Of a DNA stretch of 64,000 nt, positions 2,346 to 34,093 are shown one piece after another. Location: the NCBI GenBank assembly GCA_029242715.1, contig JAQWTL010000020.1, forward strand, positions 372,001 to 436,000, given 5' to 3'. The notes below the pieces were generated by a model, which had not been told where the DNA came from, did no database searches, and saw nothing but the letters and a program-made list of their open reading frames with translations. The stretch comes from Phycisphaerales bacterium. GTDB lineage: Bacteria; Planctomycetota; Phycisphaerae; Phycisphaerales; SM1A02. How positions within the stretch are numbered: position 1 is the stretch's first letter; each line of letters opens with the position of its first letter. Made by a program: the position numbers and the translations under genes.

Positions 2346-3353
2346 TCACGCACAGGCAGCCACCGTGTTGCGGATGCGGGAAGGAGTTCCCGTAACCATG
2401 TTCACCTTGGGCAGGCTGATTGTCAGAACGCCGTTGGTGATGCTTGCTGTAATGTTCTCGACGGTAACGTCGCGGCCGATGGCGAATGATCGCTGGTAAA
2501 CCTTGACCGGTGCCTTTTCCCGAGCGATGGTTGCGACGGGAGCTGTGACATCGATGCCGGGGATGAAGGTCGTGGACTGAGCCACTGCCTTGATAGCCAG
2601 CAGACCGTTCTCAACGGTGAGCTCGAGATCGTCGATCTTCACGCCGGGGAGGTCAGCGACCAGGAGGTACTGGGTGCCGTCATCCAGGACGTCGACTGGC
2701 AGATGAGCAACTGCAGTCTGGCTGTTGATGGTGCCGTTGACGCCATTGACAGTGTTGATGCCGAGGCCGTTGACGCCGAGGGTGTTCATCATCATTGGGC
2801 TCATGTTCTGCTGACCGGCGTAGGTGCCGAGCAGTGAGCTGTTGATGCCGTTCATGGCTGCCATTGTTGGCATTTGGCCGTTGAAGCTGTTGGCCCATGG
2901 AGTGGAGCCGAGGAAGGAAGCAGCGACTGGGCTCATGTTCTGCTGACCGGCGTAGGTGCCGAGCAGTGAGCTGTTGATGCCATTCATGGCTGCCATTGTT
3001 GGCATTTGACCGTTGAAGCTGCTGGCCCATGGAGTGGAGCCGAGGAAGGAAGCAGCGACTGGGCTCATGAATTCACCCTGCCACATGCCCGGAAGCTGAC
3101 CGAAGAAGGCGTTCTGCCGGGCGTAAGGCAGTGTCGTGGTCGAGAAGCTAGCTGGGGTGTTGGCGTTCATGCTTGCGACTGGCATGTTCCATGCGTTGTA
3201 TGTGGGGAGGTTCCAGGCGCCGAATGCGCCACCGATTGTGGGCTGCACACCGACGAAGTCGGATGCGTTCATTCCCATGGTTGCACCATTGTTGAAGAGG
3301 TTTGGTTGAACTTTGCTTGTGCCCGTTTCTTTAACTTGAACTTTGATAGCCAT
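2346..3353 (-). CDS. Hsp20-like protein with long repeat-bearing N-terminus
   Basis: A 335-residue protein, more than twice the usual Hsp20 length. Residues about 215-325 form the alpha-crystallin domain, with YLLVADLPGVKIDDLELTVE, YQRSFAIGRDVTVENITASI and GVLTISLPKV. The first 200 residues are rich in Met, Asn, Gly and Ala and carry two 44-residue direct repeats (96-139 and 140-183) that differ at one residue, plus the start of a third. Such a low-complexity arm probably drives oligomer assembly or substrate capture (inference). The start is set by AAGGAG seven bases upstream. The leader can fold so that start codon and ribosome binding site are occluded (see 3351-3377). It is second in the heat-shock row. 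Confidence 0.88.
   Translation of the reverse strand: MAIKVQVKETGTSKVQPNLFNNGATMGMNASDFVGVQPTIGGAFGAWNLPTYNAWNMPVASMNANTPASFSTTTLPYARQNAFFGQLPGMWQGEFMSPVAASFLGSTPWASSFNGQMPTMAAMNGINSSLLGTYAGQQNMSPVAASFLGSTPWANSFNGQMPTMAAMNGINSSLLGTYAGQQNMSPMMMNTLGVNGLGINTVNGVNGTINSQTAVAHLPVDVLDDGTQYLLVADLPGVKIDDLELTVENGLLAIKAVAQSTTFIPGIDVTAPVATIAREKAPVKVYQRSFAIGRDVTVENITASITNGVLTISLPKVNMVTGTPSRIRNTVAACA
2805..3068 (-). repeat. 132-bp tandem duplication inside the Hsp20-like gene
   Basis: Two head-to-tail copies (3068-2937 and 2936-2805) are each exactly 132 bases, or 44 codons. I find three base differences, of which one changes a residue (Ser to Asn). The bases just after the second copy (CAT at 2802-2804) begin a further partial copy. 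In-frame length and near identity indicate a recent duplication. Confidence 0.9.
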
Positions 3354-6028: not shown

Positions 6029-7350
6029 CTGATCAGAACTCAAAGGACACCAACGGCATCGATGTCACACGGCGAGGATTCGTAAAAGCCTCCTCTGCCA
6101 CAGTTGGTATCGCGGCCCTGGCTTCACCCGCTTTGGGTTGGGTCGATGGAGATGACACCATCAAGGTCGGATTGATTGGATGCGGTGGACGTGGAACCGG
6201 TGCGGCAGGTCAAGCCATGCGAGCGGACAAGGGGGCCGTCCTCTGGGCCATGGGCGACGCCTTTGATGACCGCCTCACCGCCAGCCATGGTCATCTCAAG
6301 AATCTTCATGGTGACCAGATTCAGGTTGATCCCGAAAATCAGTTCGTCGGATTCGATGCGTACCAGAAGGTCATTGACTCTGGAGTGGACGTCGTCATCC
6401 TGACAACACCCCCACACTTCCGTCCCGAGCACTTCAAGTACGCCGTTGACAAGAAGAAACATGTCTTCATGGAAAAGCCCATGGCTGTTGACGGCTCTGG
6501 TGTCCGTTCCGTTATTGCAGACGCACAACGTGCAAAGGAACAGGGCACGAACGTGATGGGTGGTTTCTGCTGGCGATACAACCACCCGAACCGCGAGTGC
6601 TATGCCAGAATCCATGATGGCGCCATTGGTGATGTCAAATGTGTTCACTCAACCTATCTCTCCGGACCGCTTGGCAAGAAGCCACGTCAGGCAGGCTGGA
6701 GTGACATGGAATGGCAGATGCGCAACTGGCAGCATTTCAACTGGCTCTCTGGCGATCACATTGCCGAGCAGGCATGCCACGCCATCGACAAGATCAACTG
6801 GGCCAAGGACAACATGCAACCAGACCGCTGCATCACTGTCGGCGGCCGTCAGATGAGAAGCGGGCCTGAATCCGGCAACATCTATGACCACTTCTCCGTG
6901 GTCTACGAATACCCGGACGGCACACGGTCCTTCCATGATTGCCGCCAGATGCCCAATTGCTGGAGTGATAACACCGAGAAGATCTTCGGCACCAAGGGAG
7001 ATTGCTATGTCAATTCCTGGGGGCCAACTCAGATCATCACAGGTGAAAATCCATGGGAATACGAAGGCCCCAATCCCAACATGTATCAAGTCGAACACAA
7101 TGAGTTGTTCAAGGCCATTCGGAATGGCGGCCTGATCAATGATGGGCCTGAGATGACCCGAAGCACACTGATGTCCATCATGGGTCGCATGTCCGCATAC
7201 AACGGCCAACCCGTGACCTACGAAGAGGCCCTGACAAGCGAAGATCGGCTCGGCCCTACTGTCTATGAATGGGGTGACGTGCCAGTGATTGATGTCTCGG
7301 TTCCAGGTTCACCCGCTCGCTGGGCTGATATTCAGGTTGCATCTAGGTGA
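6025..7350 (+). CDS. Gfo/Idh/MocA-family oxidoreductase, Tat-exported
   Basis: 441-residue NAD(P)-dependent sugar or polyol dehydrogenase. A twin-arginine leader (TRRGFVKASSATVGIAALA) precedes a Rossmann domain beginning KVGLIGCGGRGTGAA and the catalytic-loop motif EKPMAVD. The C-terminal alpha/beta domain has WSDMEWQMRNWQHFNWLSGD and DHIAEQACHAIDKINWA. Family members with Tat signals usually carry their cofactor out folded, as in glucose-fructose oxidoreductase; exact substrate unknown. GGGAGGAG before the ATG at 6025 fixes the start and rejects an upstream in-frame extension. It is coupled on both sides: ATGA overlap with the SUMF1 gene and GTGA overlap with the TIM-barrel gene. Confidence 0.92.
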   Translation: MTDQNSKDTNGIDVTRRGFVKASSATVGIAALASPALGWVDGDDTIKVGLIGCGGRGTGAAGQAMRADKGAVLWAMGDAFDDRLTASHGHLKNLHGDQIQVDPENQFVGFDAYQKVIDSGVDVVILTTPPHFRPEHFKYAVDKKKHVFMEKPMAVDGSGVRSVIADAQRAKEQGTNVMGGFCWRYNHPNRECYARIHDGAIGDVKCVHSTYLSGPLGKKPRQAGWSDMEWQMRNWQHFNWLSGDHIAEQACHAIDKINWAKDNMQPDRCITVGGRQMRSGPESGNIYDHFSVVYEYPDGTRSFHDCRQMPNCWSDNTEKIFGTKGDCYVNSWGPTQIITGENPWEYEGPNPNMYQVEHNELFKAIRNGGLINDGPEMTRSTLMSIMGRMSAYNGQPVTYEEALTSEDRLGPTVYEWGDVPVIDVSVPGSPARWADIQVASR

Positions 7351-16025: not shown

Positions 16026-16556
16026 ATGGCCTTCAATTTCCTCGAGCTTCCCGTGGGCCCCGAACCGCCCACCATCGTCAATGCGATCATCGAGATCCCC
16101 AGTGGGAGTTCGAACAAGTACGAGTACGACAAGCAGATGAACGTCTTCAAACTGGACAGGACCCTGTTCAGCCCGGTCCATTACCCAGGGGCCTATGGCT
16201 TCATCCCTCGTACCCACGCTGAAGATGATGACCCTCTTGACATCCTGGTGCTGCTTGATGGACCCACCTTCCCGGGAACGCTCATCGAAGTCCGACCAGT
16301 AGGCGTGCTTGAAATGAGGGATGAAAAGGGCCTTGACCACAAGATTCTCGGTGTTCCCGTCAGTGATCCACGCAAGGCAGAGATCCAGGGACTCCAGGAT
16401 GTGCCGCGGCACACCCTGAAGGAAATCGACTACTTCTTTCACATCTACAAGGATCTGGAAGGCAAGTTCGCAGATACCTATGGCTGGCTTGATCGAATGG
16501 AGTCCTATCGCATCATCGAGGAATGCATGAAACGCTACGACGAGCTTGTCAGCTGA
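16026..16556 (+). CDS. ppa: Inorganic pyrophosphatase (family I)
   Basis: 176 residues, the normal size for bacterial family I enzymes. They hydrolyse pyrophosphate to phosphate in the cytoplasm and pull biosynthetic reactions forward. The active-site landmarks are present: EIPSGSSNKYEYD (substrate Lys and Glu), YPGAYGFIPRT, DDDPLDILVL (the D-x-D-P-x-D signature for metal binding), GVLEMRDEKGLDHKILGVP and the late FFHIYKDLEGKF with its Lys. It follows the aldolase by 23 bases and may share its transcript. Confidence 0.95.
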   Translation: MAFNFLELPVGPEPPTIVNAIIEIPSGSSNKYEYDKQMNVFKLDRTLFSPVHYPGAYGFIPRTHAEDDDPLDILVLLDGPTFPGTLIEVRPVGVLEMRDEKGLDHKILGVPVSDPRKAEIQGLQDVPRHTLKEIDYFFHIYKDLEGKFADTYGWLDRMESYRIIEECMKRYDELVS

Positions 16557-27062: not shown

Positions 27063-29429
27063 TCAACCGCCGCAGGGTCCCCAGCTGGCAATAATGACCA
27101 GAAGGTCATCAGTGTTAACTGTGCCGTCATCATTCACATCACCTTCTCCCGTGCCACCAAACTGGGCAATCGCGATAAGGATGTCCTCGACGTTGACAGT
27201 ACTGTCACCATTGACATCACCATCGCAGGGTGTCTCTGGCTCACATTCAATGTATTCAACACTGAATCCGTCGACACCTGATTCCACGACGGACTGGGTA
27301 TCTGCTCCAACATCAGAAACGATGAATCGCAGCCGCATTTGAGCGGTACCCTGAATGTAATCGGCAACACGGAAAGTCATGTATGCCCAGCCACCGTTGG
27401 TGCCCTCACCGGTGGGACCGACGGTTTCAAGATCCGACCAGGTCAATCCTGCATCGTTGGAGATCTCGACCACCATGGGATCGGTTCCAGGGGCAGCACC
27501 ATAGTCATTGCTGTGCCAGCGAGCATAGGACACCAGAGTGTCATCCGAACCACTCGCATCAAATGTGGGCGATGTCAGAATGGTTGTTCCGTCATCTACG
27601 TCACTGTTGCAACCATCTGCTGATGAGTTGTCAGTCAAGTAGCAGAGTCCGGATCCATCAAAGTCTGTTCCTGGATCGCCACGCCCGCAATTGATCGGAT
27701 TGCCACGCTCCCATTGCCCATCTGCTGCATCATTTGTGACAGTCCAACCCTTGTCGGTGTTGAAATCGTCAGAGAAGGATATGACTGCCTCCCCGATGAA
27801 GAAGCCATAGGGAGCAGAAGAACCAGCGCTTGGATTGGTGGTCAGGCCAGAAGTCTGACCCTCTACCTGGAAGTAGAACTCAGGAGATTCGTCACAATTG
27901 GCTCCGGGCAGATTAGCCTTCCAGGCATTCAGGCCGTCCTGGCTCATTGCCACAGTCTGGAAGCTGTCGCTTTCACTCATCCGGTAGCTCATCTTCACCG
28001 AGCCAAGAAGCAACGTGTCCTGACGTGGATCAACGCTGATTCGGTAGGTCGTCTCGAGATACGGATCCTGGGATTCAGGAACTTCTGTCAGCAATTCAAT
28101 CTTGGGACCAAGGAAGGTATTGGCCATTGAAGCTGCAACATCAAGAACGCCGCCTGTCAGGCAGTCACCATTGAGTCCTGAGACCGGGCGGACATGGTCC
28201 AGGATGAGTGCCTTGATTTCCGCGGGGGTTGCATCGCCGAGAACCGAGTACACAAGCCCGACAGCGCCTGCGACATGAGGCGTCGCCATGGATGTACCGC
28301 TGTAATAAGAATAATTGTTGCCAGGAGTCGAGCTGAGAATCTCTACACCAGGTGCAGCAAGATCAACCTCCGTGGGGTGATACTGGCTGAAGCTTGCAAG
28401 GTTGTCGTTGCACTCGGTTGCTGCAACCGAAATGATGTTCGGAAGATCATAAGCCGCTGGATATGAAGCGCCGCTGCTGCCACTGTTTCCTGCTGCAGCA
28501 CAGAAGATGTGATCCGCCTGAGTGCCTGCATTTGCAATGGCGTCATAGAGCGACTGGGTATAACCACCACCACCCCATGAGTTGTTTGAGACCTTGAAAC
28601 CCATGACTATGCAGTACTGGACGGCTGCTACGGCATCGGCTGTTGCACCACTACCACCAGAGGAAAGGAACTGGACTCCCGCAAGTGAGCAGCTCCAGTT
28701 GACGCCCGCAACACCAATATTATTGTTGCCGACGCCACCAACGGTTCCGCCACAGTGTGTGCCGTGACCGTTACCGTCCATTGGATCGCCTTCATTGCTA
28801 CTGAAGTCGTAACCGTAGTAATCATCGACGTAGCCATTGCCATCATCATCCTGGCCATTGCCGGCGATTTCACCGGAATTCGTCCACATGTTCGCGGACA
28901 GATCCTGGTGGTTGTAATCAATACCTGTGTCGATGATGGCGATCACGAAGTTCTGGTCACCAGTGTGATCGTCCCAGGCCTCCGGTGCATTGATCGCTTC
29001 CATTCCGCACAATGCTGCGTAGCTGGGATCATTCGGAATCGCCGAGGCACGGAAAATGAAGTTGGGTTCGACATAGTGAAGCACGTCAGAACGGCTGCCA
29101 ACCTTACCTAGGGCTTCCCCAACACTCATGTCGATATCGACTTCAACCAGCCCAGGGACGAGTTGATAGGACTGCTTGATCGTGCCAACGATCTCTGTCA
29201 GTAAATCCGCACGGTCCTGCACTGAAGCAGATTCCTTGAAGCGAAGCATGAGCGAGCGAGGCTTGTGCTCATGATCAAGTGGGTTCTTTTCAGGAACAAT
29301 CCACTCAAGAGTTTCACTGGTAGTAGATGAAGCAACTGGCGAATCCTGCTTGGCACCAAGGGCAACAACAGGAATAGCCAAGGCCACGGACATCAGTCCG
29401 ATGACGCCTGGCGTCTTAATGGTGGTCAT
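27063..29429 (-). CDS. Secreted subtilisin-like serine protease (S8) with dockerin-like tail
   Basis: 788 residues. A signal peptide (cleaved near ALG-A, residue 25) and an I9-type propeptide lead to the S8 catalytic domain: Asp167 in FVIAIIDTGIDYNH, His222 in GHGTHCGG, oxyanion Asn315 in AAAGNSG, and Ser380 in GTSMATPHVAG. A beta-rich module follows (about 545-730, DDFNTDKGWTVTNDAADGQW onward) resembling MAM/jelly-roll domains. The last 55 residues hold two calcium loops, DVNGDSTVNVEDIL and DVNDDGTVNTDDLL, ending WGPCGG. Extracellular protein degradation is the likely role. GAGGAG before the ATG supports the start. Confidence 0.93.
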   Translation of the reverse strand: MTTIKTPGVIGLMSVALAIPVVALGAKQDSPVASSTTSETLEWIVPEKNPLDHEHKPRSLMLRFKESASVQDRADLLTEIVGTIKQSYQLVPGLVEVDIDMSVGEALGKVGSRSDVLHYVEPNFIFRASAIPNDPSYAALCGMEAINAPEAWDDHTGDQNFVIAIIDTGIDYNHQDLSANMWTNSGEIAGNGQDDDGNGYVDDYYGYDFSSNEGDPMDGNGHGTHCGGTVGGVGNNNIGVAGVNWSCSLAGVQFLSSGGSGATADAVAAVQYCIVMGFKVSNNSWGGGGYTQSLYDAIANAGTQADHIFCAAAGNSGSSGASYPAAYDLPNIISVAATECNDNLASFSQYHPTEVDLAAPGVEILSSTPGNNYSYYSGTSMATPHVAGAVGLVYSVLGDATPAEIKALILDHVRPVSGLNGDCLTGGVLDVAASMANTFLGPKIELLTEVPESQDPYLETTYRISVDPRQDTLLLGSVKMSYRMSESDSFQTVAMSQDGLNAWKANLPGANCDESPEFYFQVEGQTSGLTTNPSAGSSAPYGFFIGEAVISFSDDFNTDKGWTVTNDAADGQWERGNPINCGRGDPGTDFDGSGLCYLTDNSSADGCNSDVDDGTTILTSPTFDASGSDDTLVSYARWHSNDYGAAPGTDPMVVEISNDAGLTWSDLETVGPTGEGTNGGWAYMTFRVADYIQGTAQMRLRFIVSDVGADTQSVVESGVDGFSVEYIECEPETPCDGDVNGDSTVNVEDILIAIAQFGGTGEGDVNDDGTVNTDDLLVIIASWGPCGG

Positions 29430-29586: not shown

Positions 29587-31542
29587 TCAGAGTTCCCGTG
29601 GCCCAGGAGCCCCTCCGCGGCCCCCCTGGCCCCCCCGAAAACGCTCCCTCATGGCATCACGAGCAGCCCTTCGCTCATCCTCATCGAGCTGCCCGTCTCC
29701 ATTTTTGTCGAACTCCCCGATGAATTGTTCACGGGAAAAGCCCTCTTGGCCGCGATCTCCTCCCCCACCACGACCACGTCGGCGACCGGCGATGGTCTCA
29801 TACAGTTCTGGTCCCAGGATCGATTCCAAGGAACTCATGTACCGCTGATCGATTTCATTGCGTTTTTCCATGGCCTCACGGACCGGATCAAAGCTGCCTT
29901 CATCCCTTTCGGAACGTTCCCCGCGGAACCGGCTCATCCGCTCCTCTGCCCTTCGAAGCTCGCGAGCGGACTCCTCGCTCCGGAGAATCAGAAGCATGTC
30001 CTCGTTGAAAGAAGCAATTTCATCGCCATGGCTCTGCATCAAATCAGCAACAGCAACCAGTACGTCTGGATCAAGCTCCTCGATCTCCATGGCTGCCACC
30101 ATGGCGCGTTCTCCACGCGTTGGCCTGTAGATGTTGGAATAACCACGACGCAATGACTGGAGCCTGAACTCGTCTGACTGAGGCGAAACAAGAACAAGGC
30201 TGATCGCCTCGATGTACTGATCATTCACATCACGCGTGGCTTCCTGCAAGACAAGCCGCTTGCGCAACACCGACAAGCCACCATCGAAGTCCCGGTCGCG
30301 AAGATGCTCCATCAAGTCGAGCCCTTCTGCATAGTTGAAGTTGTCACGGGACTGCAGAGCCCGGTCAAGCTCAATTGCGTAGTTGCTCTTGAGCATGGCA
30401 AGATCCTCTGAATGACTGGCCTCTTCAAGTTCCATTTCACCCAGGATCTGGAGGACATCCGTAGATTCTCCAGACAATCGACCACGAGACATCAGCCTCT
30501 TTCGTCGCAGTTTTCTGGAAACATCTTCCCAGAGTTCAGCCTGATTCTCGTTGACAAGAAGGGCAAGGATTCCACTAGCTGTTGAATCTCGAAGCTGCCT
30601 CTTGTCACGTGCAAATTCACGGATCAGGGCAACACGCGCGTCCAGAATGGCCTGCATTTCTGTGCTGGCATATCGCTTCTCGCGTACGGATTGCATCTGT
30701 CCTCGGAGATCCTCAAACCGCATGCGGAACTCATCTCGAAGGGCATCGCCCCGAGCGCGTCTTTCCTCTTGAGTTTCCTGCTCAACCTGATTCTCGCCCT
30801 TTGATTCACCAGCACCAGCATCACCTTCGGCATCACGCTGTTGATCACGATCACGACCTGGTCGACCGTTTTCGCCTCGATTGGATGGGCCAAACTCACG
30901 CCTTGCAGCGCGAGCCTCATCTCGCATGGATCGCATGGACTCACGGATCTCATCCATGCTCTCTTCGAGATCTGGATCTGGAACAAACGCCTCATTGAGC
31001 GAGTCAGTTTCGCTTTTCAAGGCGTCGACCATTTCCCTGAAGTTCGTGTCGTAGTCCTCAAACAGTTGCGCAACGATTGCACGCTGGGTGTCATCTAGTT
31101 GAAGATCCTCAACAACCAATGGGACATCTCGAGTCATGTAGTCAGGAGAAAACAGGCCCTCTGGTGTCCCCATCAGACCAAGGCCTCGATCAGGCCCGCC
31201 TGGACCACGATCAGAACCGCCACGTCCCCCTTCAGGACCACCGAATCCTGGTCCGCCCCGGCCCATTCGATCACCACGATCTCCGCGAGTGCCACGGTCT
31301 CCACGACCTTCGCGATTTCCACGGTCCCCACGTTGTCCTCGATCACCACGATCCGGACGGTCACCACGAGGCTGATCGCCATCATCCTGGGCTGATTGCC
31401 CTGAGCCGGAGCCCTTTTGCTCCTGGGCCAGTGTTGGTGAATCCAAGGTCACCAGGGCCAGCATGGCCAAGATGGACAGCACGGTCGCTGTTGATGTTGT
31501 CATCAGGGATCTAGTCAACTTCATCTCGTAGAACCGAATCAT
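29587..31542 (-). CDS. Exported GDR-repeat protein with coiled-coil body and C-terminal EF-hand
   Basis: 651 residues; family not recognised. A signal peptide (MKLTRSLMTTSTATVLSILA region) is followed by a low-complexity segment at about 45-125 made of GDRGDRG, GRGDRGTRGD and GGPGFGGPEGG units, collagen-like in flavour but without a strict three-residue period. The long middle (about 140-590) is highly charged and helical, with many ER/ED runs and probable coiled coil. Near the C-terminus EFDKNGDGQLDEDE is one canonical EF-hand. AGGAGG eight bases before the ATG at 31542 fixes the start over one eight codons upstream. It is divergent from a sigma/anti-sigma/EF-hand sensor unit and is a likely target of it (inference). 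Confidence 0.8.
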   Translation of the reverse strand: MIRFYEMKLTRSLMTTSTATVLSILAMLALVTLDSPTLAQEQKGSGSGQSAQDDGDQPRGDRPDRGDRGQRGDRGNREGRGDRGTRGDRGDRMGRGGPGFGGPEGGRGGSDRGPGGPDRGLGLMGTPEGLFSPDYMTRDVPLVVEDLQLDDTQRAIVAQLFEDYDTNFREMVDALKSETDSLNEAFVPDPDLEESMDEIRESMRSMRDEARAARREFGPSNRGENGRPGRDRDQQRDAEGDAGAGESKGENQVEQETQEERRARGDALRDEFRMRFEDLRGQMQSVREKRYASTEMQAILDARVALIREFARDKRQLRDSTASGILALLVNENQAELWEDVSRKLRRKRLMSRGRLSGESTDVLQILGEMELEEASHSEDLAMLKSNYAIELDRALQSRDNFNYAEGLDLMEHLRDRDFDGGLSVLRKRLVLQEATRDVNDQYIEAISLVLVSPQSDEFRLQSLRRGYSNIYRPTRGERAMVAAMEIEELDPDVLVAVADLMQSHGDEIASFNEDMLLILRSEESARELRRAEERMSRFRGERSERDEGSFDPVREAMEKRNEIDQRYMSSLESILGPELYETIAGRRRGRGGGGDRGQEGFSREQFIGEFDKNGDGQLDEDERRAARDAMRERFRGGQGGRGGAPGPREL

Positions 31543-31602
31543 TTCACAAGCCTCCTGTGTCAGCATTTCCCTCTAACCCAACATGGCATCCGGGATGCTG
31601 TT

Positions 31603-31623
31603 GGTACTGTACGTCGGAGTACC
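31603..31623. promoter_or_regulatory. Inverted repeat in the divergent promoter region
   Basis: GGTACT (31603-31608) and AGTACC (31618-31623) flank nine bases in the 120-base space between the exported EF-hand protein and the sigma factor gene. Position and symmetry suit an operator for both genes. No matching second copy was noticed. Confidence 0.3.
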
Positions 31624-31662
31624 CCCGACCATCCCCCAGCCAATCCATGAGAGGATGTTTCT

Positions 31663-32262
31663 CTGAATATCGACCTGGAAGCCTGTTTTCAGGGTGATCC
31701 GATGGCCTGGGATGCCTTCATGGCCCAGACAATGGGACTGGTCGTGGCCGCCGTTCGCCGGACCATCGGGGGCGGAAATCGCCCCGCAGAGCTGGAACTG
31801 GATGACATTGTCCAAGCCGTGTACCTGAAACTCGTACGCAATGATTGCCGCTTGCTGAGAACCTTTGATCCCCAGCGAGCTTCGATGTCCACCTGGCTGA
31901 CCTTGGTCGCTCGGAGCACGGCCATTGACACTCTCAGGAGGCAGAAGCCCACCATGGCAATGGTGGATGAAGAGACACCCGCCAGGGAGCATATTGAGCC
32001 CGAAGCACCTGAAATAGATATTCCGCTCCATATCCTCACCGCCCGACAGCGGCTGGTCTTGACCCTCCTCTATGACGATGAGAAATCCGTTGCTGAGGTG
32101 GCTTCCATCCTTGATGTGAATGAGCAAACCGTACGAAGTACCAAGCACAAGGCCCTGGAGAGGCTCCGAAGCCATTTTCAGTCCCGAAAACAGGGGTCAG
32201 CAGGCACAGAACCAGGCCAATCCGATGGGGATGATCTGGCCCCGATCAACGTAGAGAACTAA
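31663..32262 (+). CDS. ECF sigma factor, probable CTG start
   Basis: About 199 residues. Region 2 reads LEACFQGDPMAWDAFMAQTM, ELDDIVQAVYLKLVR and MSTWLTLVARSTAIDTLRRQ; region 4 reads LTARQRLVLTLLYDDEKSVA and ILDVNEQTVRSTKHKALERL, a clear helix-turn-helix. The first ATG of the frame (31702) would remove the front of region 2.1, whereas the frame upstream encodes LNIDLEACFQGDP, which matches family N-termini. An AGAGGA site (31650-31655) lies seven bases before CTG 31663, and the only other upstream codons are non-starts after a TGA at 31648. A CTG start is therefore proposed; 31702 is the conservative alternative. Next gene begins 17 bases after the stop. Confidence 0.88.
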   Translation: MNIDLEACFQGDPMAWDAFMAQTMGLVVAAVRRTIGGGNRPAELELDDIVQAVYLKLVRNDCRLLRTFDPQRASMSTWLTLVARSTAIDTLRRQKPTMAMVDEETPAREHIEPEAPEIDIPLHILTARQRLVLTLLYDDEKSVAEVASILDVNEQTVRSTKHKALERLRSHFQSRKQGSAGTEPGQSDGDDLAPINVEN

Positions 32263-32279
32263 GTGTGGGAGTGAATTGA

Positions 32280-32807
32280 ATGACATTTCCTGATGACGAC
32301 AGACTGAAGTCCGCCTGGCAGAACCGCCAGAAAGGAACATCCTCGGTAACCGGGGATGTGACCGAGGTCGCTGCATGGCTGGACCAGGGGTGCCCTGAGA
32401 GTGATTCCATTGATCTCATGCTTGCTGAGAACCGCTCCCTGCGAGAAGCCGTAGGGGCCATTCGACTTGAGCAGCCAGATGCCAGCACCCAGTTCGTTTC
32501 CAAGGACACCCATGACCGATTGCTGGCCGCCGTGCTTGAAACCTTGCCTTCACATGCTGCTGCCCGAGCCAGGCCTCCAGTCATTGGATCGATAGGCCTG
32601 CGAATCACTGCCGCTGCAGCAGCCATCGTTGTTGCGGCACTCGGCTTCAATTTCGGACGTGTTGCCGCTCCAGCAACCAACCAGGCAACCAGCGACTTTG
32701 TAACGGTTGTCACCTTCGACATGCTGTCTGATGATGACAACCTCAATTCAATCCTGATGACAAGCTCGGTTGCCATTGATGTAGTCAGTGAAGGAGATGA
32801 GCAATGA
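32280..32807 (+). CDS. Probable anti-sigma factor with one membrane span
   Basis: 175 residues. A cytoplasmic part of about 100 residues with acidic and helical stretches is followed by one span (IGLRITAAAAAIVVAALGFN) and a short periplasmic tail of about 50 residues. There is no zinc-binding HxxxCxxC motif. The assignment rests on topology and position directly after an ECF sigma gene and before a sensor-like gene, as in sigma/anti-sigma operons. GGGAG eight bases upstream supports the start; the stop overlaps the next ATG (ATGA, 32804). Confidence 0.7.
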   Translation: MTFPDDDRLKSAWQNRQKGTSSVTGDVTEVAAWLDQGCPESDSIDLMLAENRSLREAVGAIRLEQPDASTQFVSKDTHDRLLAAVLETLPSHAAARARPPVIGSIGLRITAAAAAIVVAALGFNFGRVAAPATNQATSDFVTVVTFDMLSDDDNLNSILMTSSVAIDVVSEGDEQ

Positions 32808-33577
32808 ATCGTTCCGTGACGGTCTTCCTGCTGGGCCTTTCCCTCCTGTTCAATGTTTTCTTCATCGTTGGCGCCATGACATGGCGAGCCAATGTGGCAA
32901 CTACGGAAGATGGCAACATCCAGGAAGTGACCGAAACGCTGGATCTTGACAACAGGCAGACAAATGTCTTCAAGAGCATGCGGCGCGAATTCCGTACAGA
33001 ATCCGCCGTACTCGGCCAGCAAGTTCGCCGTCTCAGAGCGATGATCGCAGAGGAACTGGCGAGCGAAAATCCGGACACGAACAAGCTTCGAATGCTGGTG
33101 GAAGAGGAAAGCGGCCTGCAGGCTGAACGTCATCAACTCGGCACCAACCAGTTCACAGACTTCATTGGCCTGCTCTCGCCCGATCAGAGAAAACGACTGG
33201 GACACCGACTCATGGGGCCTCCTGGACACGGCCATCCACCCGAAGAACTCGAGCGACGAGCGTTGGAACGCTTCGATCTGGACGGTGACGGCCTGCTGAA
33301 CGAACAGGAACGCTTTGCTGCAAGAGAATTCGCCAGAAAAATGCAGCAAGAACGCAAAGCACAACGCCGAGAAATGGAACGCCTCTTCGACTTCGATGGA
33401 GATGGGAAGCTTTCTCCGGAAGAGCAGGAAGCACTTCGTGAACACATGCTGGAGAACCGCCCCCAACGTGGCGGTGATCGAAGAGGTCGTGGCAACAGGC
33501 CACACCCACCGGATAGATCAGACCCTCATGCCCCTCTTCATGGCCACCCTCCACATGGACCGCCGCCAGGCTTCTGA
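32804..33577 (+). CDS. CnrX/CpxP-like membrane-anchored sensor with two EF-hands
   Basis: 257 residues. An N-terminal anchor (VTVFLLGLSLLFNVFFIVGA) leads to a helical periplasmic domain with LDLDNRQTNVFKSMRREFRT, VRRLRAMIAEELASENPDT and FIGLLSPDQRKRLGHRL, the two-hairpin pattern of the CnrX/ZraP/CpxP group (LSPDQR is the LTxxQ element). Two canonical calcium loops follow, DLDGDGLLNEQE and DFDGDGKLSPEE, and then a His/Pro/Gly tail (HPPDRSDPHAPLHGHPPHG) that could bind transition metals. In Cnr-type systems such a protein signals metal binding to the anti-sigma factor. Fusion to EF-hands is unusual. AGGAG precedes the start. Confidence 0.78.
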   Translation: MNRSVTVFLLGLSLLFNVFFIVGAMTWRANVATTEDGNIQEVTETLDLDNRQTNVFKSMRREFRTESAVLGQQVRRLRAMIAEELASENPDTNKLRMLVEEESGLQAERHQLGTNQFTDFIGLLSPDQRKRLGHRLMGPPGHGHPPEELERRALERFDLDGDGLLNEQERFAAREFARKMQQERKAQRREMERLFDFDGDGKLSPEEQEALREHMLENRPQRGGDRRGRGNRPHPPDRSDPHAPLHGHPPHGPPPGF

Positions 33578-33673: not shown

Positions 33674-34093
33674 ATGGGCTGGGTTTACTTAGGTATCGCG
33701 ATCTTTTTCGAAGTCAGCGCTGCGCTATGCCTGAAGCACACCGTCCCTGTGCCACCCGACGAAAAATACAAGATCGGCCCCGGGATCTTGATGATTGTCT
33801 TCTACATTCTGTGCTTCCTGGCCATGATTCAGGCAGTCAGAACCTTGCCCCTGGGACTGATGTATGCCATCTGGGGCGGTGTTGGGACAGCGGCCATTGC
33901 ACTACTGAGTTGGCAGATTTGGGGCGAGCACATGCCGATGATGAAAGTCGCCGGAATTGCGCTGATCGTCATGGGAGTCATGTTGGCAAACCTTGCAAAG
34001 GAAGACCCCAAAAAAGGCCCCTCTTTGGAGCATGGAAAACAGATGCAGACTGAGCCCGCCCCTCCCTCCGAGACAGATATTTCACCCTCCTAG
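33674..34093 (+). CDS. Small multidrug resistance (SMR) family transporter
   Basis: 139 residues with four spans. MGWVYLGIAIFFEVSAALCLKH holds the membrane glutamate equivalent to Glu14 of EmrE, and LPLGLMYAIWGGVGTAAIAL is the family's third-span signature. SMR proteins export quaternary cations, or guanidinium in the Gdx branch, against protons. The C-terminal tail of about 30 hydrophilic residues is longer than usual. The start at 33674 is preferred over upstream in-frame ATGs because AAGGAAAG precedes it and it begins the first span. Confidence 0.9.
   Translation: MGWVYLGIAIFFEVSAALCLKHTVPVPPDEKYKIGPGILMIVFYILCFLAMIQAVRTLPLGLMYAIWGGVGTAAIALLSWQIWGEHMPMMKVAGIALIVMGVMLANLAKEDPKKGPSLEHGKQMQTEPAPPSETDISPS

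Follow-up and report, generated by a model that had tools for sequence, protein, structure and literature searches.

What might a bacterium sense with an EF-hand protein encoded beside a sigma factor gene, and what would it switch on in response? The question is raised by a locus in a 64,000-nucleotide stretch of DNA (the window) on contig C30 of the 3.2-Mb genome of a presumably marine Phycisphaerales bacterium (JAQWTL010000020.1, positions 372,001 to 436,000). On the + strand of this window, genes follow one another for an extracytoplasmic function (ECF) sigma factor, a one-span protein and an anchored protein with an LTXXQ/PF13801 hairpin and two EF-hands; a large exported EF-hand protein is encoded divergently. 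An earlier reading, made from the sequence alone, had taken these for a metal or calcium signalling unit of the Cnr kind, and the four genes that it described (sigma factor, one-span protein, EF-hand hairpin protein and divergent EF-hand protein) are all confirmed in place. On balance, we favour the view that they form an ECF-sigma envelope-response circuit with the third protein as its input, and we tentatively propose Ca2+ occupancy of the EF-hands as the switch. The predicted circuit, its target and its built-in negative feedback are well supported by genome comparison. The features discussed below are as follows.

31663..32262, + strand: ECF sigma factor gene, probable CTG start codon at 31663-31665 (TIGR02937, Sigma70_r2 and r4)
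32280..32807, + strand: one-span anti-sigma, a likely zf-HC2 (ZAS) descendant with zinc ligands lost (family alignment; weak NCBIfam 'antisigma' match)
32804..33577, + strand: putative periplasmic sensor with N-terminal membrane helix, PF13801/LTXXQ hairpin, two EF-hands and a Pro/Arg/His-rich tail (profiles, model)
33275..33310, + strand: EF-hand loop 1 of the sensor, DLDGDGLLNEQE (canonical ligand positions)
33389..33424, + strand: EF-hand loop 2 of the sensor, DFDGDGKLSPEE (loop sequence)
29587..31542, - strand: divergent predicted target, an exported 651-aa helical protein with a Gly-X-Arg-rich N-terminal stretch, a weakly LTXXQ-like hairpin and a C-terminal EF-hand
29674..29709, - strand: EF-hand loop of the target, DKNGDGQLDEDE (loop sequence)
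31605..31636, - strand: predicted promoter P1 of the target, GGGGATG-N16-CGTACAGTA (same element in loci L034-L038)
32227..32258, + strand: predicted promoter P2 of the anti-sigma-sensor pair, within the 3' end of the sigma gene, GGGGATG-N16-CGTAGAGAA

Conservation of the three-gene cassette

We compared 61 genomes: that of the window, 5 of its genus, 31 of its family and 24 of its order, which gives a family set of 37. A profile of the sigma factor (E up to 1e-30) matches 17 of the 61: G041, which belongs to another family, and 16 family genomes (of 37), whose matches all reach E 2e-68 or lower. These 16 are exactly the family genomes in which a hairpin sensor adjoins the sigma gene, and the order sigma, anti-sigma, sensor is found at every one of the 16 loci (L034-L048 and the window). 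In some genomes with more than 54 sigma candidates, only 54 were scored (among cassette-free family genomes, this concerns G016, G028, G031, G032 and G033), and all sensor candidates were scored. As a query, the sensor protein matches 22 of the 61 genomes (E up to 0.001); in six of these (G031, G033, G040, G041, G048 and G060), EF-hand stretches alone account for the match. The window's genome has a single sensor copy, and a PF13801 profile search of that genome matched only this protein. In G002 the whole cassette lies on two contigs with equal matches (C10:3896-7886 and C27:17978-21959), either as a true duplication or as an assembly artefact.

Sensor homologues that never lie beside an ECF gene would have spoken against the sequence-only reading, and the opposite is the case: all 16 hairpin sensors of the family adjoin a sigma gene. 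The three-gene order that it proposed looking for in other Planctomycetes was found in 16/37 family genomes, and trios with EF-less sensors occur elsewhere in the phylum. The trio is present in G041 with a sensor that lacks EF-hands. Among 196 sampled genomes of the phylum, 17 (the window's own included) are matched by the hairpin profile, and a sigma match lies beside the hairpin in 9 of the 18 phylum loci examined; no EF-hand loop was detected by pattern in the matched frames of these 18 loci. The strongest cases, L065 and L066, and another example, L074, resemble the window in having sigma and hairpin genes side by side but differ from it in having no EF loop. Judged by these comparisons, the trio is a conserved unit that is wider than the family. 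Because it is EF-less outside the family and EF-bearing in 14/16 cases inside it, the EF-hands look like an addition to the hairpin sensor in this planctomycete family. A tree of 18 sigma proteins is of low resolution (3 of 15 inner branches starred); sensors may have changed just once between the EF-less and the EF-bearing form.

The sigma factor matches TIGR02937 at 75.7 bits (cut-off 42.9), and both Sigma70_r2 (PF04542) and Sigma70_r4 (PF04545) score above cut-off. The window one-span protein has no Pfam match and a weak match to NCBIfam 'antisigma' (E 6.4e-5; 23 bits, where the cut-off is 100). Eight of the 16 aligned anti-sigma members match zf-HC2 (E up to 0.01), and HxxxCxxC ligands are present in six (L042, L043, L044, L046, L047 and L048); the window protein aligns across the zf-HC2 region with these ligands gone, so it lacks the residues that mark a zf-HC2 (ZAS) protein. 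Since half of its family matches zf-HC2 and the window copy aligns there without ligands, the one-span protein is, on the strength of this alignment, a descendant of zinc (zf-HC2) anti-sigmas that has lost its zinc ligands. Its periplasmic tail comprises approximately 50 residues, among which Phe146 is nearly invariant; in the window protein, acidic residues come after this Phe. The two proteins are almost certainly a sigma/anti-sigma pair.

A predicted promoter element and its likely target

A word count of upstream regions, in which CATCCCCG occurs in 12/16 (controls 8 to 9), led to a candidate ECF-type promoter element. GGGATG-N16-CGTAnnGTA is found on the target strand in the divergent intergenic regions of the window and L034-L038, and the strict form GGGATG-N15..17-CGTANNGTA has one match in the entire window genome (control 0). 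The same element, which had not been searched for there, recurs on the opposite strand where the sigma gene ends, with its CGTA 26 bases 5' of the anti-sigma start. Within 110 bases before the anti-sigma gene, GGGAT[GA]-N15..17-CGTA is present at 14 of the 16 loci (the L041 anti-sigma start being moved to the next Met); 1000 dinucleotide shuffles gave a mean of 0.003 and a largest count of 1, and the antisense count is 0. The stricter GGATG-N16-CGTA precedes the anti-sigma at 10/16 loci with the L041 start unmoved. The P2 site of L038 starts with the final base of the sigma stop codon, whereas that of the window is complete before the stop is reached; given this difference in position, the P2 sequence seems to be conserved in its own right. 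With up to 2 mismatches allowed, the window has 3 matches, of which two are P1 and P2 and the third lies at 16177; shuffled sequences average 0.59, and 3 of 100 reach 3. Housekeeping-type promoters were found once, and shuffles gave a mean of 2.4.

The sequence-only reading had suggested the divergent protein as the target, and this suggestion is strengthened by the way in which the conserved promoter tracks the cassette across genomes. An upstream site is carried by the best target gene in 14 of 16 cassette genomes (ten linked and four unlinked, the latter being G019, G020, G026 and G027) and in 0 of 16 cassette-free genomes (Fisher p 5e-7); counted once per genus, the figures are 9/11 and 0/16 (p 1e-5). 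The relaxed pattern GGGAT[GA]-N15..17-CGTA was applied to both sides alike. The cassette-free side comprises the 21 such genomes of the family less five for which no target locus was available (G015, G029, G033, G034 and G035); its lowest-scoring targets are those of G008, G028 and G036, without which the count is 0/13. Since the motif had been derived from the six genus members, the four unlinked sites had no part in its discovery. In G025 the site (L043, 6025-6051) has a spacer of 17 and the target starts at 6111. The two misses among cassette genomes are G014 and G017. G017 was scored among the misses even though the target gene there comes after the sensor, downstream of P2; a divergent exported EF-hand redoxin bears the site instead. 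Divergent exported redoxins with C-terminal EF-hands stand at the usual place of the target in L044 (10242-11207) and L041 (664-1728); the first carries a GGGATG-N16-CGTA site, and none was seen at the second.

It is very likely, in our view, that the sigma factor reads P1 and P2. Across the genus, 5 of 15 motif matches lie beyond P1 and P2, with 0 in the controls of all six genomes. These five GGGATG-N16-CGTAnnGnA matches are at G001:C23:16006, G005:C43:12211, G000:C11:72641, G004:C23:8693 and G001:C25:68775. In another motif search of G000, 3 of 5 matches were extra, with 1 in the control; such further genus matches are possibly extra regulon members or chance. At L065, in the phylum but outside the class, the sigma homologue has a back-to-back pair of GGGATG-N16-CGTA sites at its start (2803-2858), and of the eight trio-like phylum loci scanned the other seven have no such element. 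In view of the L065 sites, recognition of this promoter may be old.

The sigma gene itself has a probable CTG start codon at 31663. The first ATG (31702) comes only after codons for conserved N-terminal residues. Five codons 5' of the CTG the window has an in-frame stop, with no ATG, GTG or TTG between them, and in L035 such a stop is two codons from the CTG. The codon three before a conserved Asp is CTG in 5/6 genus species (CCA in L037), and outside the genus the same aligned start codon is ATG at 6 of 10 loci and GTG at 1. CTG start codons are expected to be weak. No promoter element was found before the sigma gene in the genus. As the sigma gene lies upstream of P2, lacks an element of its own in the genus and should start weakly, activation would raise the inhibitor over the sigma factor, making the response a self-limiting pulse. 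Negative feedback of this kind is, we believe, likely.

The target probably starts at ATG 31542, which gives 651 aa. It has a signal-peptide-like start and, in the window, one C-terminal EF-hand that is canonical in sequence but below the Pfam cut-off. Its model is helical with a mean predicted local distance difference test score (pLDDT) of 71, so its fold is settled no further than 'helical'; a Foldseek comparison with the PDB gave 24 matches up to E 10, none of them at E up to 0.001. In 11 of 16 genomes an orthologue adjoins the cassette: ten of these are divergent from the sigma gene, and the eleventh, in G017, follows the sensor. The family is large, with matches in 50/61 genomes and up to 15 stretches per genome, and is barely covered by Pfam. 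The window's genome has eight such stretches, including G000:C11:81727-82701 and C17:64439-65740. In the N-terminal part of the target, an Arg-rich Gly-X-Y stretch (31180-31380, GDRGDRGQRGDRG...) resembles a short charged collagen repeat; a weak NCBIfam collagen-like match is far under its cut-off.

Two further genes lie close by. A small multidrug resistance (SMR) transporter gene (33674-34093) follows the sensor in 6/6 genus species and was not found in the available flanks of the other 10 loci. No + strand terminator-like site was found between the sensor and the SMR gene, which might for this reason be co-transcribed from P2. On the other side, a subtilase gene (27063-29429) whose product has a weak dockerin-like (Ca2+-binding) C-terminus adjoins the target in 4/6 genus species.

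What the sensor may read

The sensor scores above cut-off with PF13801 (Metal_resist; 40.7 bits, cut-off 29.2), PF07813 (LTXXQ; 31.5, cut-off 24.3) and EF-hand_1 (29.4, cut-off 25.4). Among the 16 sensor members, PF13801 is matched by 14 and LTXXQ by 12 (E up to 0.001). In its AlphaFold model (mean pLDDT 80), a long first helix passes through the membrane, followed by a high-confidence helical hairpin, the two EF loops linked by one long helix, and a disordered tail. Compared with solved folds, the model aligns to ZraP at Z 11.3 (79 residues), Spy at 9.7 (96), CnrX at 9.2 (102) and CpxP at 9.2 (108). A search of PDB sequences with the whole sensor was swamped by calmodulins, which dominate the best 60 of 480 matches, and it was therefore repeated with the hairpin alone: the 19 matches up to E 1 include a VirG-like protein (E 2e-6), Spy and ZraP (approximately 0.01) and CpxP (0.2), and CnrX is not among them. 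Spy, CpxP and ZraP are periplasmic chaperones or adaptors, CpxP and ZraP being tied to two-component systems. The window protein shares with them the hairpin fold and the LTXXQ motif; it differs in the membrane anchor of its hairpin and in the link to an ECF sigma factor.

Both EF loops match D-x-[DN]-x-[DN]-G-x-[IL]-x-x-x-E and score above the Pfam cut-off. In loop 1, ligand positions 1, 3, 5 and 12 are canonical in all 14 bearers (Asp1, Asp/Asn3, Asp/Asn5, Gly6, Glu12). A genome-wide EF-hand count with PF13202 returned two matches in one 410-aa frame and missed the sensor's own loops, so it is uninformative.

The following mechanism is proposed. At rest, the one-span anti-sigma would hold the sigma factor at the inner membrane, as its family suggests, while the LTXXQ hairpin of the sensor would contact the short periplasmic tail of the anti-sigma. 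Ca2+ occupancy of the two EF-hands would set this contact. Because sea water would keep canonical EF-hands filled, release would most likely follow Ca2+ loss or envelope disturbance. The freed sigma factor would then read GGGATG-N16-CGTA, producing the exported EF-hand helical protein from P1 and more anti-sigma and sensor from P2. Calcium is attractive as the signal because sensor and target both carry EF-hands, and we offer it as a tentative candidate.

Several observations weigh against this scheme, some touching the circuit and others its calcium input. L040 lacks P2, and in L048 it cannot be recognised. Of the 12 matched stretches in G014, three target-like frames were tested, and none is preceded by a site. 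A sense site within 230 bases before the sigma gene is confined to L039 and L045; in G012 and G027 a site in this position, additional to the others, makes positive autoregulation likely. In L046 a divergent promoter-like site before sigma (3262-3286) precedes no recognisable gene. The sensors of G014 and G020 lack EF-hands despite the cassette (2/16), and since G020 keeps the target promoter, EF-hands are not needed to retain the rest of the circuit. The EF-hand is also kept by 13 of the 16 best target genes in cassette-free genomes and is thus not tied to the proposed signal. Finally, unrelated helical bundles score level with the ZraP, Spy, CnrX and CpxP matches, which consequently say only 'same kind of hairpin'.

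The same circuit could also run on another signal. The EF-hands would then be structural or serve envelope attachment, and the Spy/CpxP-like hairpin would catch unfolded or excess envelope protein, perhaps the target itself; we regard this as quite possible, if short of probable. It agrees with the EF-less sensors in 2/16 cassettes and with the other exported EF-hand proteins that adjoin the cassette (the redoxins of L041 and L044), and EF-hands may perhaps simply be customary in the exported proteins of this lineage, without serving as the input. A signal of this kind would suit a hairpin profile that reaches the VirG-like protein and then, weakly, Spy, ZraP and CpxP, whose folds rank well, and the first target hairpin weakly resembles that of the sensor (hhalign E 3e-4, probability 40, 58 columns). 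However, two loops with complete Ca2+ ligands are retained in 14 of the 16 sensors while the tail behind them drifts, and the chaperone role of the sensor hairpin is itself putative. A different division of labour would make the third protein an effector chaperone co-expressed with the anti-sigma, which alone would receive the signal, for instance through proteolytic cleavage in its periplasmic tail. Consistent with this, the third gene lies behind P2 like a target and the anti-sigma tail has its own nearly invariant Phe; yet the third protein keeps a conserved, uncleaved-looking membrane anchor (consensus FLLGLSLLFNVFF), and in the window its start overlaps the anti-sigma stop by four bases (ATGA), both of which fit a membrane partner. 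We consider this division fairly improbable and the role of the third protein as input probable.

Transition metals, which the sequence-only reading had held open next to calcium, have lost most of their appeal. A CnrX/ZraP-type sensor of nickel, cobalt or zinc, with the His-rich tail as metal reader, would explain the PF13801 'heavy-metal resistance' match, the presence of CnrX and ZraP among the well-ranked folds and the presence of 6 His among the 45 C-terminal residues of the window copy. In an alignment of 15 hairpins (L048 left out), the best conserved residues are L48, Q52, R60, D91, L124, P126 and Q128, and no His, Cys or Met falls in an invariant or 90% column, the start Met excepted; signalling by CnrX, in contrast, requires Met123, as described in PMC7689651. 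A CnrX-like metal site was accordingly rejected for want of a conserved ligand column. The tail was likewise rejected as a metal reader for the family, as its last 45 residues contain 0 to 6 His across the 16 sensors and none in 6/16. The target, moreover, is not an efflux pump. A transition-metal sensor is, on this evidence, very improbable.

Relation to known systems and wider meaning

What stands of the Cnr-like unit is its layout, with an ECF sigma factor, a one-span anti-sigma and an anchored hairpin sensor in one cluster; what does not is the CnrX-like metal site. The order Y-X-H of the cnrYXH genes differs from the order sigma-anti-sensor of the window. CnrYXH of Cupriavidus metallidurans, which senses cobalt and nickel, combines an ECF sigma factor, a transmembrane anti-sigma and an anchored periplasmic sensor (PMC7689651). 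Compared with that system, the window sensor has no conserved metal-ligand column and ends in two EF-hands, the anti-sigma appears to be derived from zf-HC2, and the gene behind P1 encodes an exported helical EF-hand protein and not a metal efflux pump.

In Caulobacter vibrioides, a periplasmic EF-hand protein, CaBP, is linked to the gene for the ECF sigma factor SigV; the two are described as regulating each other and responding to calcium limitation (PMC13171946, 2026). CaBP has 133 residues, three EF-hands and a signal peptide, and the account consulted mentions neither a hairpin nor an anchor. The CaBP-SigV loop is described there as positive, with its membrane link unknown, whereas negative feedback is predicted for the window circuit. 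The same three-gene order is found in an Azospirillum brasilense operon of RpoE8, a hypothetical protein and a 'periplasmic heavy metal sensor' (AMK58_24940-24950), which is raised upon RpoE6 overproduction; the term 'EF-hand' is absent from the main text of that report (PMC12826043). In the open-licence literature, by titles and abstract openings, we found no report, for ECF systems, of a fusion of the kind seen in the window.

To our knowledge, few bacterial extracellular-calcium receptors are wired straight to a sigma factor. The window unit is best described as a variation on the Cnr-like plan, one to which a regulon and feedback can be assigned by prediction and for which the calcium claim is plausible. 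In its fullest form, the proposal would be that we have here the first case of an ECF sigma system reading calcium through EF-hands that are part of an anchored anti-sigma partner: an old LTXXQ stress hairpin would have gained a Ca2+ switch in one planctomycete family, in a circuit that exports a large EF-hand scaffold protein and shuts itself off through a promoter in the end of the sigma gene. Taken as a whole, that statement is one we would call doubtful.

The unit nevertheless offers a complete candidate chain of EF-hand sensor, anti-sigma, sigma factor, two promoters and target, which could be rebuilt in E. coli. Its feedback would follow a simple design, in which a promoter sits between the sigma and anti-sigma genes. 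For the Phycisphaerales, an expanded family of exported helical proteins, for which no solved fold match was found, gains a predicted regulator.

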